The notes under the pieces: generated by a model
Told to the model about the DNA's origin: nothing
Seen by the model: only the letters and a program-made list of their open reading frames with translations
Databases searched by the model: none
DNA from: Acidobacteriota bacterium
GTDB taxonomy: Bacteria > Acidobacteriota > Terriglobia > Terriglobales > Acidobacteriaceae
DNA length: 64,000 nucleotides
NCBI GenBank assembly: GCA_003225005.1
Contig: QIAN01000162.1
Coordinates: forward strand, 62,001 to 126,000
Direction: 5' to 3'
In this document: positions 6,438 through 47,592 of the stretch, piece by piece
Numbering within the stretch: position 1 is the first letter of the stretch
Layout: each line of letters starts with the position of its first letter
Made by a program: the position numbers and the translations under genes

Positions 6438-6554
6438 ACCTCTTCCCCTGCCCGCTTGTTTGCTGAGTGCTGACGTGTTTTCACGGGTGCGCGTAGGCTA
6501 TTTGCCGCAGAAAGCCCTGTCAGTTCGACAGCGAACGGAGAGCTGCTGAAGCGG

Positions 6555-39433: not shown

Positions 39434-40606
39434 TTAATACTTCGGCATCTTCGGGTCCACGCGCTCGGCCCACGCGTTAATTCCCCCGGCGAGATTGTGG
39501 ATTTTCGTGAATCCTGCCTGGCGCAGGAAATCAACCGCCTTGGCGCTGCGCCCGCCCATCTTGCAGTGGGCGACGATCTCGCGGCTGGAGTCGAGTTCGT
39601 GCACGCGACTGGGCAGATCATTCAGCGGAATGAGCTGTCCCCCGATGTTGCAGATCTGGTATTCGTGTGGCTCGCGGACATCGAGAACAAATATGTCGTC
39701 GCCCGCATCCAACCTGCGCTTGAGCTCTTCAACCTGCATATCGGTAGGCGCGTTGGCCACCGATTTTTCCTCCCCGCGAATGCCGCAAAACTCGTTGTAG
39801 TCTATCAGCTTGGTCACCGTGGGGTGTGTGCCGCACACCGGACAGTCGCGGTTCTTGCGCAGCTTGAGCTCGCGGAACTTCATGTTGAGGGCATCAATCA
39901 GCAGCAGTCGTCCAATTAACGGTTCGCCTTTGCCCAGGATGAGCTTGATTACTTCCGTGGCCTGCATCACTCCCACCAGCCCAGGCAGGATGCCAAGCAC
40001 ACCGCCCTCGGCGCAGGAGGGAACCAGGCCCGGCGGTGGCGGTTCAGGATACAGGCAGCGATAGCAGGGACCTTGTTCGGTAGCAAACACGCTGGCCTGA
40101 CCTTCGAAGCGGAAGATGGATCCATAAACATTCGGCTTGCCCGTCAGCACGCAAGCATCATTGACCAGGTAGCGGGTGGGGAAGTTGTCGGTGCCGTCGG
40201 CGATGATGTCGAAATCACGAAAGAGTTCCAGAGCGTTCGCGCTGCTCAGCCGCGTATCAAACGTCCGTAGATTCAGAAACGGATTGATCGCCTTGAGCTT
40301 GTCCGCTGCGGAGTCGAGCTTCTTGCGTCCCACATCGGCGGTGGAGTGAATGATCTGCCGCTGCAGGTTGGTGTAATCGACGACATCAAAGTCGACCAGG
40401 CCCAGCGTCCCCACGCCCGCGGCCGCCAGATACAGAGCCAACGGTGATCCCAACCCTCCGGTGCCGATACACAACACGCGCGCCGCCTTCAGCTTCAACT
40501 GTCCTTCCATGCCGACTTCCGGCATTATCAGGTGGCGTGAATAGCGCAGGATCTCTTCATTGCTCAAGGTAGCGGTTGCGGGTTGGGTTTCAAGTGTGGT
40601 GGCCAT
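39434..40606 (-). CDS. moeZ: MoeZ-type sulfur-carrier adenylyltransferase with rhodanese domain
   Basis: A 390-residue ThiF/MoeB-family enzyme fused to a rhodanese domain. The E1-like part has the nucleotide loop GTGGLGSPLALYLAAAGVG, LVDFDVVDYTNLQRQI, and zinc cysteines CYRCLYP and CPVCGTHP. The rhodanese (residues 285-390) carries the active Cys in AHCKMGGRSAKAVDFL. Such proteins adenylate the C-terminal Gly of a small ubiquitin-like protein and sulfurate it to a thiocarboxylate. A MoaD-like carrier gene lies 109 nt upstream on the same strand, so they form an operon. GAGGA precedes the ATG. Confidence 0.92.
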   Translation of the reverse strand: MATTLETQPATATLSNEEILRYSRHLIMPEVGMEGQLKLKAARVLCIGTGGLGSPLALYLAAAGVGTLGLVDFDVVDYTNLQRQIIHSTADVGRKKLDSAADKLKAINPFLNLRTFDTRLSSANALELFRDFDIIADGTDNFPTRYLVNDACVLTGKPNVYGSIFRFEGQASVFATEQGPCYRCLYPEPPPPGLVPSCAEGGVLGILPGLVGVMQATEVIKLILGKGEPLIGRLLLIDALNMKFRELKLRKNRDCPVCGTHPTVTKLIDYNEFCGIRGEEKSVANAPTDMQVEELKRRLDAGDDIFVLDVREPHEYQICNIGGQLIPLNDLPSRVHELDSSREIVAHCKMGGRSAKAVDFLRQAGFTKIHNLAGGINAWAERVDPKMPKY

Positions 40607-40715: not shown

Positions 40716-41024
40716 CTACAATCCGTAAACCGATCCATTCGTAACCGTAATCCCGCCTCCGGCGATCGAAGGCACAATTGAAATGTTATCACTGTCAGTC
40801 ACTGCCGTGGCTTCTTTCTGCATGTAACGGATGTCTTCATCGTTCAGGTAAAGGTTCACGAACGCGCGCAGCTTGCCATCGTCAGTGTAGAGATGCCGCT
40901 TCAGATCTGGATGCTGCACCACCAGCGTATTCATGGCCTCACCCACGGTCGCGGCCTTCACTTCAACGGTGGCCTGCTTGCTCGCATACTGCCTCAAGGG
41001 CGTAGGAATATGGATCTTGCTCAT
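40716..41024 (-). CDS. Ubiquitin-like sulfur carrier (MoaD/CysO type) with C-terminal extension
   Basis: A 102-residue beta-grasp protein of the MoaD/ThiS/CysO group: IPTPLRQYASKQATVEVKA, VNLYLNDEDIRYMQ and the terminal SIVPSIAGGG. In working carriers the Gly-Gly is the C-terminus; here residues 89-91 are Gly and 11 more residues follow (ITVTNGSVYGL). A protease must remove these before adenylation, as QbsD (JAMM) does for QbsE. A JAMM protease gene is present at 47158. The carrier is best placed with CysO-like cysteine biosynthesis because of moeZ and cysM in the window. Confidence 0.88.
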   Translation of the reverse strand: MSKIHIPTPLRQYASKQATVEVKAATVGEAMNTLVVQHPDLKRHLYTDDGKLRAFVNLYLNDEDIRYMQKEATAVTDSDNISIVPSIAGGGITVTNGSVYGL

Positions 41025-45408: not shown

Positions 45409-45891
45409 CTAGGCTCGCCCTTTTTTCGCCGCGAGCGCAGCCGCTGCTCCCGCCACTTCCCAAGGCCGCTTCGGCCGATCAGTCGGCTTTTTGTCGCGAT
45501 CTTCGACGCGGTCGTATTGATAAGACTCGCTCACCGTTCCTAGAGATTCGTTGTACAGGCTGGGTAGGCCAAGCGCGACCTTGAGCTCTTCCGCAAATGA
45601 ATGCAGCGCCTTCAGGTGATCGGCAGTCGCCGGCACTTCTGTCTTGGACGTCTTAAGAAACTGCTGGTAGCCGCGGTTCACCAACTTTGAGATCTCGCTC
45701 CCTATCAGGTAGCCGGGGTAAGCGAAGATTTTCACTCCATCGTCGGGAGTCTTCTGAATGGCGGCAGATACATTGTATTTTCTGAGAAACACCCGTCCAC
45801 TCATGCCGGGGGCTTCGGTGAGGTCAAATCCCTGGTCACGCAACCAAGCCAGCGCTTCTTCATACGACCGTGCTTCCATCGTTTTGGCCAT
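45409..45891 (-). CDS. Conserved hypothetical protein
   Basis: A 160-residue soluble protein. The N-terminus (YEEALAWLRDQGFDL) is helical, followed by a strand-rich middle with DDGVKIFAYPGYLIG and a charged Pro/Lys/Arg-rich tail. GAGAGAA lies just before the ATG. I do not recognise a family or function. It is divergent from cysM. Confidence 0.7.
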   Translation of the reverse strand: MAKTMEARSYEEALAWLRDQGFDLTEAPGMSGRVFLRKYNVSAAIQKTPDDGVKIFAYPGYLIGSEISKLVNRGYQQFLKTSKTEVPATADHLKALHSFAEELKVALGLPSLYNESLGTVSESYQYDRVEDRDKKPTDRPKRPWEVAGAAAALAAKKGRA

Positions 45892-46076
45892 TTCTCTCTA
45901 CTCAAACCCTTTCTTCGTTCCTGCCGTCTTTGATGCGGACTTTGCCCGCAACGCTCCGCGCTTTGTATCATCCAAAGCAACATACTTTAGATACCGCGTT
46001 TCAGCCTTTGTAGCACATTACGATGGTCACGATAGTCCGGTTCGTGTAGTTGCTCGGCGTTACAATACCGCTTTGT

Positions 46077-47072
46077 ATGGCAAAGACTTCAAGCAAACTT
46101 GCTGAGAAGAATGCCGCGTCGCCTGCGCGCAGGCCAGAAGGTACAAAACCGCCGCTAGGCCAGAGCCCGCTGCAGCGGATCGGCAACACTCCGCTTCTCC
46201 GGCTCGACCGCCTGACACGCCACTTGCCCGGTGTTGAGATTCTGGGTAAGGCCGAGTGGTATAACCCCGGAGGCTCGGTTAAAGACCGCGCCGCCTCCAA
46301 CATCGTCGCGGAAGGCCGCCGTAGCGGAAAATTCCCCCGGGGCAAGAGTCTGCTCGATTCCAGCAGCGGCAATACTGGCATAGCCTACGCCATGTTGGGA
46401 ACGGCAGAAGGCTTCCCGGTGACGCTGTGCATGCCGGAAAATGTCTCCCTCGAGCGCAAACGCATTCTGCACGCTTATGGGGCCAACATTATTTATACCG
46501 ATCCCGCCGACGGTTCCGACGGCGCCATTCTCAAGGCCCGCGAACTAGTGGCGAGCCACCCGGACACATATTTCTATGCCGACCAGTATTCCAACGACGC
46601 GAATTGGAAAGCGCACTATCAGGGCACGGCCAACGAAATCTGGCAACAAACTGAAGGACGCATCACGCACTTCGTCGCGATGCTCGGTACAGGTGGCACC
46701 TTCGTCGGTACCACGCGGCGGCTTAAAGAACTGAATCCCGCGATTCAGTGCATCTCGCTGCAGCCCGATTCACCGTTTCATGGCATCGAGGGAACCAAGC
46801 ACATGGCCAGCGCCATCATCCCGAAGATTTACGACTCCCACCTCGCCGACCAGGACATGAGCATCCTGACAGAAGAGGCTTATGGGATGGCAAAGCGGCT
46901 CGCCCGTGAGGCAGGAGTCCTGGTGGGAATTTCAGCCGCAGCCGCGGTCGTCGGGTGCCTGAAAATCGCTGAAGGGCTGCGGCTGAAAGAGGCAGAGCAA
47001 GCTGTGATCGTCACTATCCTCTGCGACTCCGGTGACAAATACCTGAGCGAAAGATTCTGGACAGAAGAATGA
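46077..47072 (+). CDS. cysM: Cysteine synthase, CysM/CysK type
   Basis: A 331-residue PLP enzyme. The PLP-lysine loop is AEWYNPGGSVKDRAA (about residue 68), the substrate-binding SSSGNTGIAYAMLG (about 100) is intact, and GTGGTFVGTTRRLKE forms the phosphate cup. CysM uses a sulfide or a protein-bound thiocarboxylate to make cysteine from O-phosphoserine or O-acetylserine. A JAMM protease gene follows 85 nt downstream, the same adjacency as cysM-mec in Mycobacterium, which favours the CysO-dependent type. Confidence 0.9.
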   Translation: MAKTSSKLAEKNAASPARRPEGTKPPLGQSPLQRIGNTPLLRLDRLTRHLPGVEILGKAEWYNPGGSVKDRAASNIVAEGRRSGKFPRGKSLLDSSSGNTGIAYAMLGTAEGFPVTLCMPENVSLERKRILHAYGANIIYTDPADGSDGAILKARELVASHPDTYFYADQYSNDANWKAHYQGTANEIWQQTEGRITHFVAMLGTGGTFVGTTRRLKELNPAIQCISLQPDSPFHGIEGTKHMASAIIPKIYDSHLADQDMSILTEEAYGMAKRLAREAGVLVGISAAAAVVGCLKIAEGLRLKEAEQAVIVTILCDSGDKYLSERFWTEE

Positions 47073-47157: not shown

Positions 47158-47592
47158 ATGCTGAAGATTAAGCAGACCGACCACGCCTCCATCCGACGCC
47201 ATGGCGAAGAAACCTATCCTAACGAATGCTGCGGCGTGCTGCTCGGCCGCGTAGCTGACGACGGCACGCGCATCGTGACCTCCACCGCCCGCTGCGGCAA
47301 CACCCGCACCGACTCGGCCCGCAATCGTTACAACATTGACCCCCGCGATCTGCTCCGCCTCCAGCGCGAGGGTCGCGAACGCGGCGAGGACATCATCGGC
47401 TTTTACCACTCCCACCCCGATCATCCTGCCCGCTGGTCGCCGACCGATCTTGCCGAGGCTCATTGGTTCGGTTGCTCCTACCTGATCACCAGCGTGCAGA
47501 AGGGCAGGGCGGTTCTCACGAACTCCTTCGAACTCACCGGCAACGGCGAGAGCGACAAGCAACTTTCGGATGAAACGATCGAAATCATCTGA
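47158..47592 (+). CDS. mec: Mec-type M67 (JAMM) metalloprotease
   Basis: A 144-residue zinc metalloprotease with the JAMM motif complete: Glu in PNECCGVLLGR (residue ~22) and HSHPDHPARWSPTD (HxH-x7-S-x2-D). In Mycobacterium Mec releases cysteine from CysO-Cys adducts; in Pseudomonas QbsD trims the tail after Gly-Gly of a carrier. Both reactions are plausible here because the carrier at 40716 has an uncut tail. ATG directly follows cysM in the same direction. Confidence 0.9.
   Translation: MLKIKQTDHASIRRHGEETYPNECCGVLLGRVADDGTRIVTSTARCGNTRTDSARNRYNIDPRDLLRLQREGRERGEDIIGFYHSHPDHPARWSPTDLAEAHWFGCSYLITSVQKGRAVLTNSFELTGNGESDKQLSDETIEII

Follow-up and report, generated by a model that had tools for sequence, protein, structure and literature searches.

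The window, a stretch of 64,000 nucleotides from a contig of a soil acidobacterium (Acidobacteriota; QIAN01000162.1, positions 62,001 to 126,000), encodes a small sulfur carrier of the ThiS/MoaD family together with an E1 adenylyltransferase, a cysteine synthase and a JAMM metallopeptidase (Table 1). The carrier open reading frame (ORF; 40716–41024, minus strand) starts with ATG and specifies 102 amino acids, with a C terminus that reads SIVPSIAGG followed by GITVTNGSVYGL and the stop codon. The Gly-Gly motif ends at position 40755, the 12 tail codons occupy 40754–40719 and the TAG stop lies at 40718–40716. The Pfam ThiS model covers residues 4–90 and so reaches the second Gly (score of 44.9 bits against a cut-off of 22.5), and both the translation and this domain boundary confirm the tail after Gly-Gly that a preliminary description of the sequence had reported. 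Its statement that a JAMM gene lies in the same window is also correct, and the catalytic motif is intact. The closest solved relative of the carrier is 3dwg_C (E = 9e-15), which we take to be Mycobacterium tuberculosis CysO; chain A of the same entry is cysteine synthase B. CysO-type carriers end exactly at Gly-Gly, and the window carrier continues for 12 residues beyond it.

Table 1. Positions of the carrier, its extension and the associated genes in the window
Feature	Position	Strand	Basis
CysO-like ThiS/MoaD-family sulfur carrier core, ending PSIAGG	40755..41024	minus	ThiS Pfam, 3dwg_C, SAMP1
C-terminal extension GITVTNGSVYGL, 12 residues, plus stop TAG	40716..40754	minus	Sequence
Putative Cys leader ORF: TTG start, (M)KTSPTNRRCCRRYW, TAA	40665..40712	minus	Position and sequence similarity to relatives' leaders
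MoeZ/MoeB-type E1 adenylyltransferase with C-terminal rhodanese (MoeBR)	39434..40606	minus	Pfam, NCBIfam MoeB/MoeZ models
CysM-like cysteine synthase	46050..47072	plus	ORF from TTG; domain from about residue 39–42; start provisional
JAMM (Prok-JAB, Mec-like) metallopeptidase	47158..47592	plus	Adjoins cysteine synthase; motif E...HSH...S..D intact

The carrier stop is separated by 109 bases from the start of the MoeBR gene, whose product scores 282.5 bits against the Pfam model ThiF and 58.7 bits against the rhodanese model. The cysteine synthase and JAMM genes lie about 5–6 kb from the carrier on the opposite strand. The cysteine synthase scores 336.8 bits against TIGR01138, below the cut-off of 394.2; it matches solved cysteine synthases, the 3dki and 3dwg entries among them, and enzymes named for O-acetylserine as well as for O-phosphoserine. 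In the JAMM protein, the metal and catalytic motif residues E23, H84, S85, H86, S94 and D97 do not vary across 16 aligned sequences, that of the window included. JAMM and cysteine synthase genes, which share the window with the carrier here, are adjacent to it in many relatives, and the order CysM–JAMM–carrier–MoeBR recurs in many of them.

Two profile scores bear on a different identity for the pair, in which the carrier would be a ubiquitin-like modifier of the SAMP/Urm1 kind, the JAMM protein a desampylase and the tail a block to conjugation until it is removed. The carrier just passes the NCBIfam SAMP1 model (60.6 bits; cut-off 60), and desampylase is the best model for the JAMM protein. 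At 89.8 bits, however, the latter match misses the cut-off of 130, the nearest solved carrier is 3dwg_C, and the cysteine synthase beside the JAMM gene and the rhodanese domain on the E1 point to sulfur transfer. We regard a modifier function as very improbable.

A role in sulfur transfer would place the locus beside the CysO–CysM–Mec+/MoeZR system of M. tuberculosis, which has the same components (carrier, E1–rhodanese, cysteine synthase and JAMM protein) and in which Mec+ hydrolyses the CysO–cysteine adduct (PMC3227635). The two differ in that 3dwg_C ends at Gly-Gly, whereas the acidobacterial carrier is a tailed precursor or is fused to the E1. The same gene set also forms an operon class (ThiS/MoaD–E1–JAB–cysteine synthase) in row 4c of Iyer et al. 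2006, with an acidobacterium (Susi) among its members, and these authors proposed that JAB proteins could free ThiS/MoaD carriers fused to other proteins (PMC1779556). The tails, their co-occurrence with JAMM genes, the carrier–E1 fusions of this operon and the Cys-rich leader ORF go beyond the accessible part of that work.

Extensions beyond Gly-Gly in homologous carriers

We took homologous loci in named genomes, the best 80 of the 90 that passed selection, and read each to the first in-frame stop. Residues past Gly-Gly or a fusion were present in 77 of these 80 loci: 73 carriers have a tail and four are fused in frame, three to MoeBR (L100, L102 and L114) and one (L115) to what appears by eye to be a rhodanese–E1 arrangement. 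Relatives that end exactly at Gly-Gly, which the preliminary description had named as evidence against its own proposal, account for only three of the best 80 of 90 (L108, together with L116 and L117, both labelled Chloroflexota). Because nearly all relatives read extend past Gly-Gly, the tail in the window is not a contig-specific stop-codon artefact, and a sequencing error as its source is ruled out.

The form of the extension is far less constant than its presence. Among the best 80 of 90 loci, tails range from 1 to 39 residues and have no common sequence (examples are AA, AV, C, R and L). Tails of one or two residues are the commonest, and Cys directly follows Gly-Gly in 27 of 155 distinct core-plus-tail pairs. 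No conserved tail motif emerged, and the 12-residue sequence of the window is absent from all of these best 80 loci. In a DNA alignment with nine relatives (the L016 row left out), the window's tail codons align to the spacer 3′ of the two-residue tails of sister species. Aligning homologues for tail conservation, as had been suggested, thus gave a divided answer: an extension is present in nearly all, and its length and sequence vary even within a genus. This variability gives no support to the idea that the window's tail is a special or dedicated switch. The tail is real, and its interpretation as a conserved module or specific switch is not supported by the sequences compared.

The position of the stop codon is biased as well. 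In a set of 81 unfused carriers with distinct cores and an adjoining same-strand JAMM gene, drawn from all loci, only two (L108 and L228) stop directly after Gly-Gly. The stop hazard at the next three codons is 18/79, 14/61 and 11/47, or 0.23 per codon, which makes stops directly after Gly-Gly about nine-fold rarer than at these positions beside a JAMM gene (p = 2e-7; 1e-6, 8e-6 and 0.009 with cores clustered at 90, 80 and 70% identity). The hazard is low once more at positions four and five after Gly-Gly (2/36 and 4/34), so that an alternative reading is that tails of one to three residues are favoured. Under either reading, an exact Gly-Gly end beside a JAMM gene is unusual. One possible reason for the deficit is that activation has been made protease-dependent. 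L108 and L228, which end exactly at Gly-Gly beside a JAMM gene, count against carrier maturation by the JAMM protein.

Short C-terminal extensions past Gly-Gly that are removed by a JAMM protease are known from the carrier–protease pairs QbsE/QbsD, which serve a siderophore, and HcyS/HcyD, which serve homocysteine. The window carrier shares with them both the residues beyond Gly-Gly and a JAMM partner. Unlike those pairs, the acidobacterial genes form a cysteine operon, the tails (1–39 residues) are of unconstrained sequence and some carriers are fused to the E1. No paper on QbsE or HcyS carriers was among the matches listed in our literature search.

Separately, four loci whose carriers are 58–65% identical to the acidobacterial one (L098, L106, L096 and L109) have odd labels (Bordetella parapertussis, Betaproteobacteria, Acidimicrobiia and Bacteroidetes) and are possibly mislabelled bins. 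Second tailed carriers lie directly 3′ of an ORF that by eye resembles threonine synthase in L214 (856–2461; G000:C498) and L207 (2188–3812; G073:C1), the one in L214 being 38–39% identical to the window carrier. Such a second carrier may feed sulfur to O-phosphohomoserine to give homocysteine; our literature search found no paper combining threonine synthase with a sulfur carrier.

Extensions, fusions and the JAMM gene in Acidobacteriota

In a sample of 197 acidobacterial genomes (requested completeness at least 90%), a carrier-core profile (A1) found matches in 100 and an operon-type JAMM profile (A2) in 88. We read 150 carriers among the matches listed and dropped four that had no Gly-Gly at the model end (L287, L288, L291 and L303), which left 146 carriers from 99 genomes, the hundredth genome (G071) being left out. 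Of these carriers, 45 stop exactly at Gly-Gly and 55 carry a tail; a further 45 form an in-frame fusion with a MoeB-type E1, and the remaining one continues in another long frame. An operon-type JAMM gene was present in the genome for 100 of the 101 extended carriers versus 20 of the 45 exact ones, among the matches listed (Fisher p = 7e-15, uncorrected for relatedness). Counted by genome, 75 combine an extension with JAMM, one (G163) has an extension without it, four have only exact ends with JAMM and 19 have only exact ends without it. The exceptional G163 (91% complete) encodes a fusion carrier, and its Prok-JAB match reaches just 20.5 bits, below the cut-off. The general Prok-JAB model gives some match in 12 of the 21 acidobacterial genomes scored as lacking JAMM, five of them above the cut-off, and the JAMM-less genomes mostly have other carrier subfamilies, which makes subfamily a confounder of the association.

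On the supported branches of the carrier tree, three independent pairs differ in extension, and JAMM co-changes in 2.2 of them on average and never in the opposite direction. Six pairs differ in JAMM presence, with the extension co-changing in 2.3 and unchanged in 3.7, and four differ in JAMM adjacency, with 0.7 co-changing and 3.3 unchanged. A phylogenetically independent association of tail and JAMM did not emerge, as none of these comparisons (three, six and four supported pairs) is significant and none runs against the association; the phylogenetic independence of the link is weak. Chloroflexota provide no independent contrast, because Prok-JAB is present in all 30 sampled genomes; the main carriers there have a tail in 19, an exact Gly-Gly end in 10 and an in-frame run-on in one. 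The ten exact ends, in genomes that all have a Prok-JAB, count against a maturation role of the JAMM protein.

Nearly all of the acidobacterial fusions (44 of 45) are found in genomes with JAMM. Among 53 distinct carrier–E1 fusions from all loci, Gly-Gly is directly followed by S, A or T in 50, the linker lacks ATG in 45, and in 13 it contains no ATG, GTG or TTG at all; at least these 13 can therefore hardly be two separately started genes. As a Gly-Gly within a chain cannot be adenylated, fused carriers, if they work, would require a cut.

These data also bear on whether the tails could be neutral read-through that another peptidase, such as a general carboxypeptidase, trims, with the JAMM protein serving only to release cysteine. 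The free drift of tail sequence and length would suit such an explanation, as would the carriers of paralogue B, which are short-tailed and have no JAMM gene found nearby. By contrast, the MoeBR fusions need an internal endoproteolytic cut, stops are depleted directly after Gly-Gly, and 25 of the 26 carriers from genomes without an operon-type JAMM gene have nothing after Gly-Gly. We consider neutral read-through unlikely. Removal of the tail by the JAMM protein is, on these comparisons, likely. The preliminary description had cast this removal both as a maturation step and as a possible switch: the JAMM protein is the best candidate for the protease, given operon adjacency, co-occurrence, the fusions and the few exact Gly-Gly ends beside a JAMM gene, and the tail as a dedicated switch is not supported.

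Several fusions have other arrangements. In L195, L196, L204, L209 and L115/L153, a domain that is rhodanese-like by eye directly follows Gly-Gly and precedes the E1, unlike the E1–rhodanese order of the window. The carrier in L248 (Chloroflexota, G252:C7) runs on in frame for 315 residues past Gly-Gly in a sequence that looks by eye like a cysteine synthase, and that in L282 (G160:C227) reads on in frame into sequence resembling the N terminus of a GTPase, which we take to be TypA/BipA.

A Cys-rich short ORF between carrier and E1 gene

In many close relatives the spacer between carrier and MoeBR contains a short ORF, for example MKPADTIRCCMCCPSCW or MKPSFTSRCCCCPRCR, each ending at a stop codon. 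Of the 44 named loci closest to the window (L038–L081), 28 have three or more Cys codons close to a stop within the 420 nt that follow Gly-Gly. In 25 of them the codons belong to a short ORF of their own ahead of the E1 gene, and in three (L054, L063 and L074) to the carrier tail; the other 16 of the 44 fail this three-Cys rule. The putative counterpart in the window starts 3 nt past the carrier stop and leaves 58 nt between its own end and the MoeBR start; it reads TTG AAA ACC AGC CCC ACA AAT CGC CGC TGT TGT CGC CGC TAC TGG TAA. With just two Cys codons it, too, fails the rule, and because two are not significant alone, its assignment as a leader relies on similarity to the relatives.

The enrichment in relatives extends to tails and spacers alike. 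Cys accounts for 80 of 653 residues in the 76 distinct tails of those carriers for which a downstream E1 start was located, and runs of at least four Cys in six codons occur in 25 of 81 intergenic regions (at least 60 nt) versus 0.19 expected from dinucleotide shuffles. Across 1.02 Mb of loci scanned on both strands there are 36 such runs: 21 immediately precede MoeBR, one (L113) immediately precedes CysM, and the other 14 have none of the six probed genes close by. The run in L113 (labelled Ignavibacteriae) belongs to a poly-Cys ORF at about position 6491 (ending in MSLSLRCICCCCC and a stop) and starts about 27 nt upstream of where cysM is extrapolated to begin. No poly-Cys leader was seen by eye before the window's own cysM gene in 45700–46120.

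Polycysteine leader ORFs have been described upstream of mycobacterial cys operons (PMC1262725; see also Canestrari et al. 2020 on mycobacterial Cys-run leaders, as cited in PMC13236596), and uORFC-8-2, a Cys-codon leader ORF, precedes cysS in Rhodobacterales (PMC8632094). Like these, the ORFs in the 28 loci above are short, have Cys codons near the stop and precede a cysteine-related gene; they differ in lying inside an operon, between carrier and E1, and in sometimes forming the carrier's own C-terminal tail. No report of Cys-leader peptides in Acidobacteria was among the matches listed in our literature search, most subscription papers being outside its reach.

Whether these ORFs are translated can be weighed on 34 leader examples, which have a median distance of 53.5 nt to the MoeBR start. 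The alternative is an untranslated motif conserved at the DNA or RNA level, for example a regulator site. Such a motif could account for the predominance of TGT (124, versus 33 TGC; n = 157 Cys codons) and for a leader stop that is TAG in 32 of 34, a uniformity that looks greater than chance and may be part of a nucleotide-level signal. It would also fit the finding that only 15 of the 27 separate leaders have ATG, TTG or GTG at the expected offset, eight codons ahead of the Cys run, and the lack of a conserved attenuator fold, the consensus being empty across the 34 sequences. The same start-codon count, however, also shows an initiation codon recurring at a single offset, and TGT and TGC are exchanged synonymously. 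Moreover, the runs are found in each of the three frames with respect to the carrier, and seven of the 34 lie in frame within the carrier tail. Pairing of the leader 3′ end with the MoeBR Shine–Dalgarno sequence was no better than in shuffles, falling below the shuffle mean in only 12 of 34. We consider an untranslated motif rather unlikely. As a translated leader, the Cys-rich ORF after the carrier may sense cysteine supply.

A precursor model for the cysteine pathway

We propose that the locus probably encodes a cysteine pathway of the CysO–CysM–Mec type in which the carrier would be made as a precursor and matured by the JAMM protein, with a Cys leader before MoeBR. The JAMM protein would cut the carrier after Gly-Gly, MoeBR would adenylate and thiocarboxylate the freed Gly, CysM would build carrier–Cys, and the same JAMM protein would repeat the same cut and so release cysteine. 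In chemical terms, a CysO–cysteine adduct amounts to a carrier whose tail is a single Cys, and removal of a tail and release of the product would therefore be the same cut. Because the protease would remove whatever follows Gly-Gly, the tail sequence would be free to drift, with at least one residue usually kept.

The Cys-rich leader ORF would add a regulatory layer. When Cys-tRNA is short, ribosomes would be slowed on the leader and MoeBR expression would be adjusted; in some species, the leader ORF would have become the carrier tail. The comparisons suggest that the role of a switch-like element falls not to the tail itself but to the separate Cys-rich leader ORF that directly follows the carrier and that, in some species, is part of the carrier tail. 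More tentatively, the arrangement could work as a self-erasing cysteine sensor, in which Cys codons in the tail or the adjacent leader report cysteine supply to the E1 gene and the JAMM protein removes the resulting peptide by its product-releasing cut; we see this as a possibility of fairly low probability. Gene content, tails, fusions, co-occurrence, the stop deficit and the Cys-run ORFs are read directly from the DNA, and from them we infer cleavage, the dependence of MoeBR on it, cysteine as the product and Cys-dependent control.

For the sampled Acidobacteriota, these observations yield a testable rule for the phylum: carriers of the cysteine pathway are mostly made as precursors, either tailed or fused to the E1, and such precursors should stay inactive until the JAMM protein cuts after Gly-Gly. 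Eukaryotic ubiquitin precursors are processed in a similar way. In the acidobacterial pathway, one protease reaction is suggested to serve both maturation of the carrier and release of the product, and cysteine-codon leader peptides, of which the matches listed in our literature search held no earlier report for this phylum, are suggested to occur in it.
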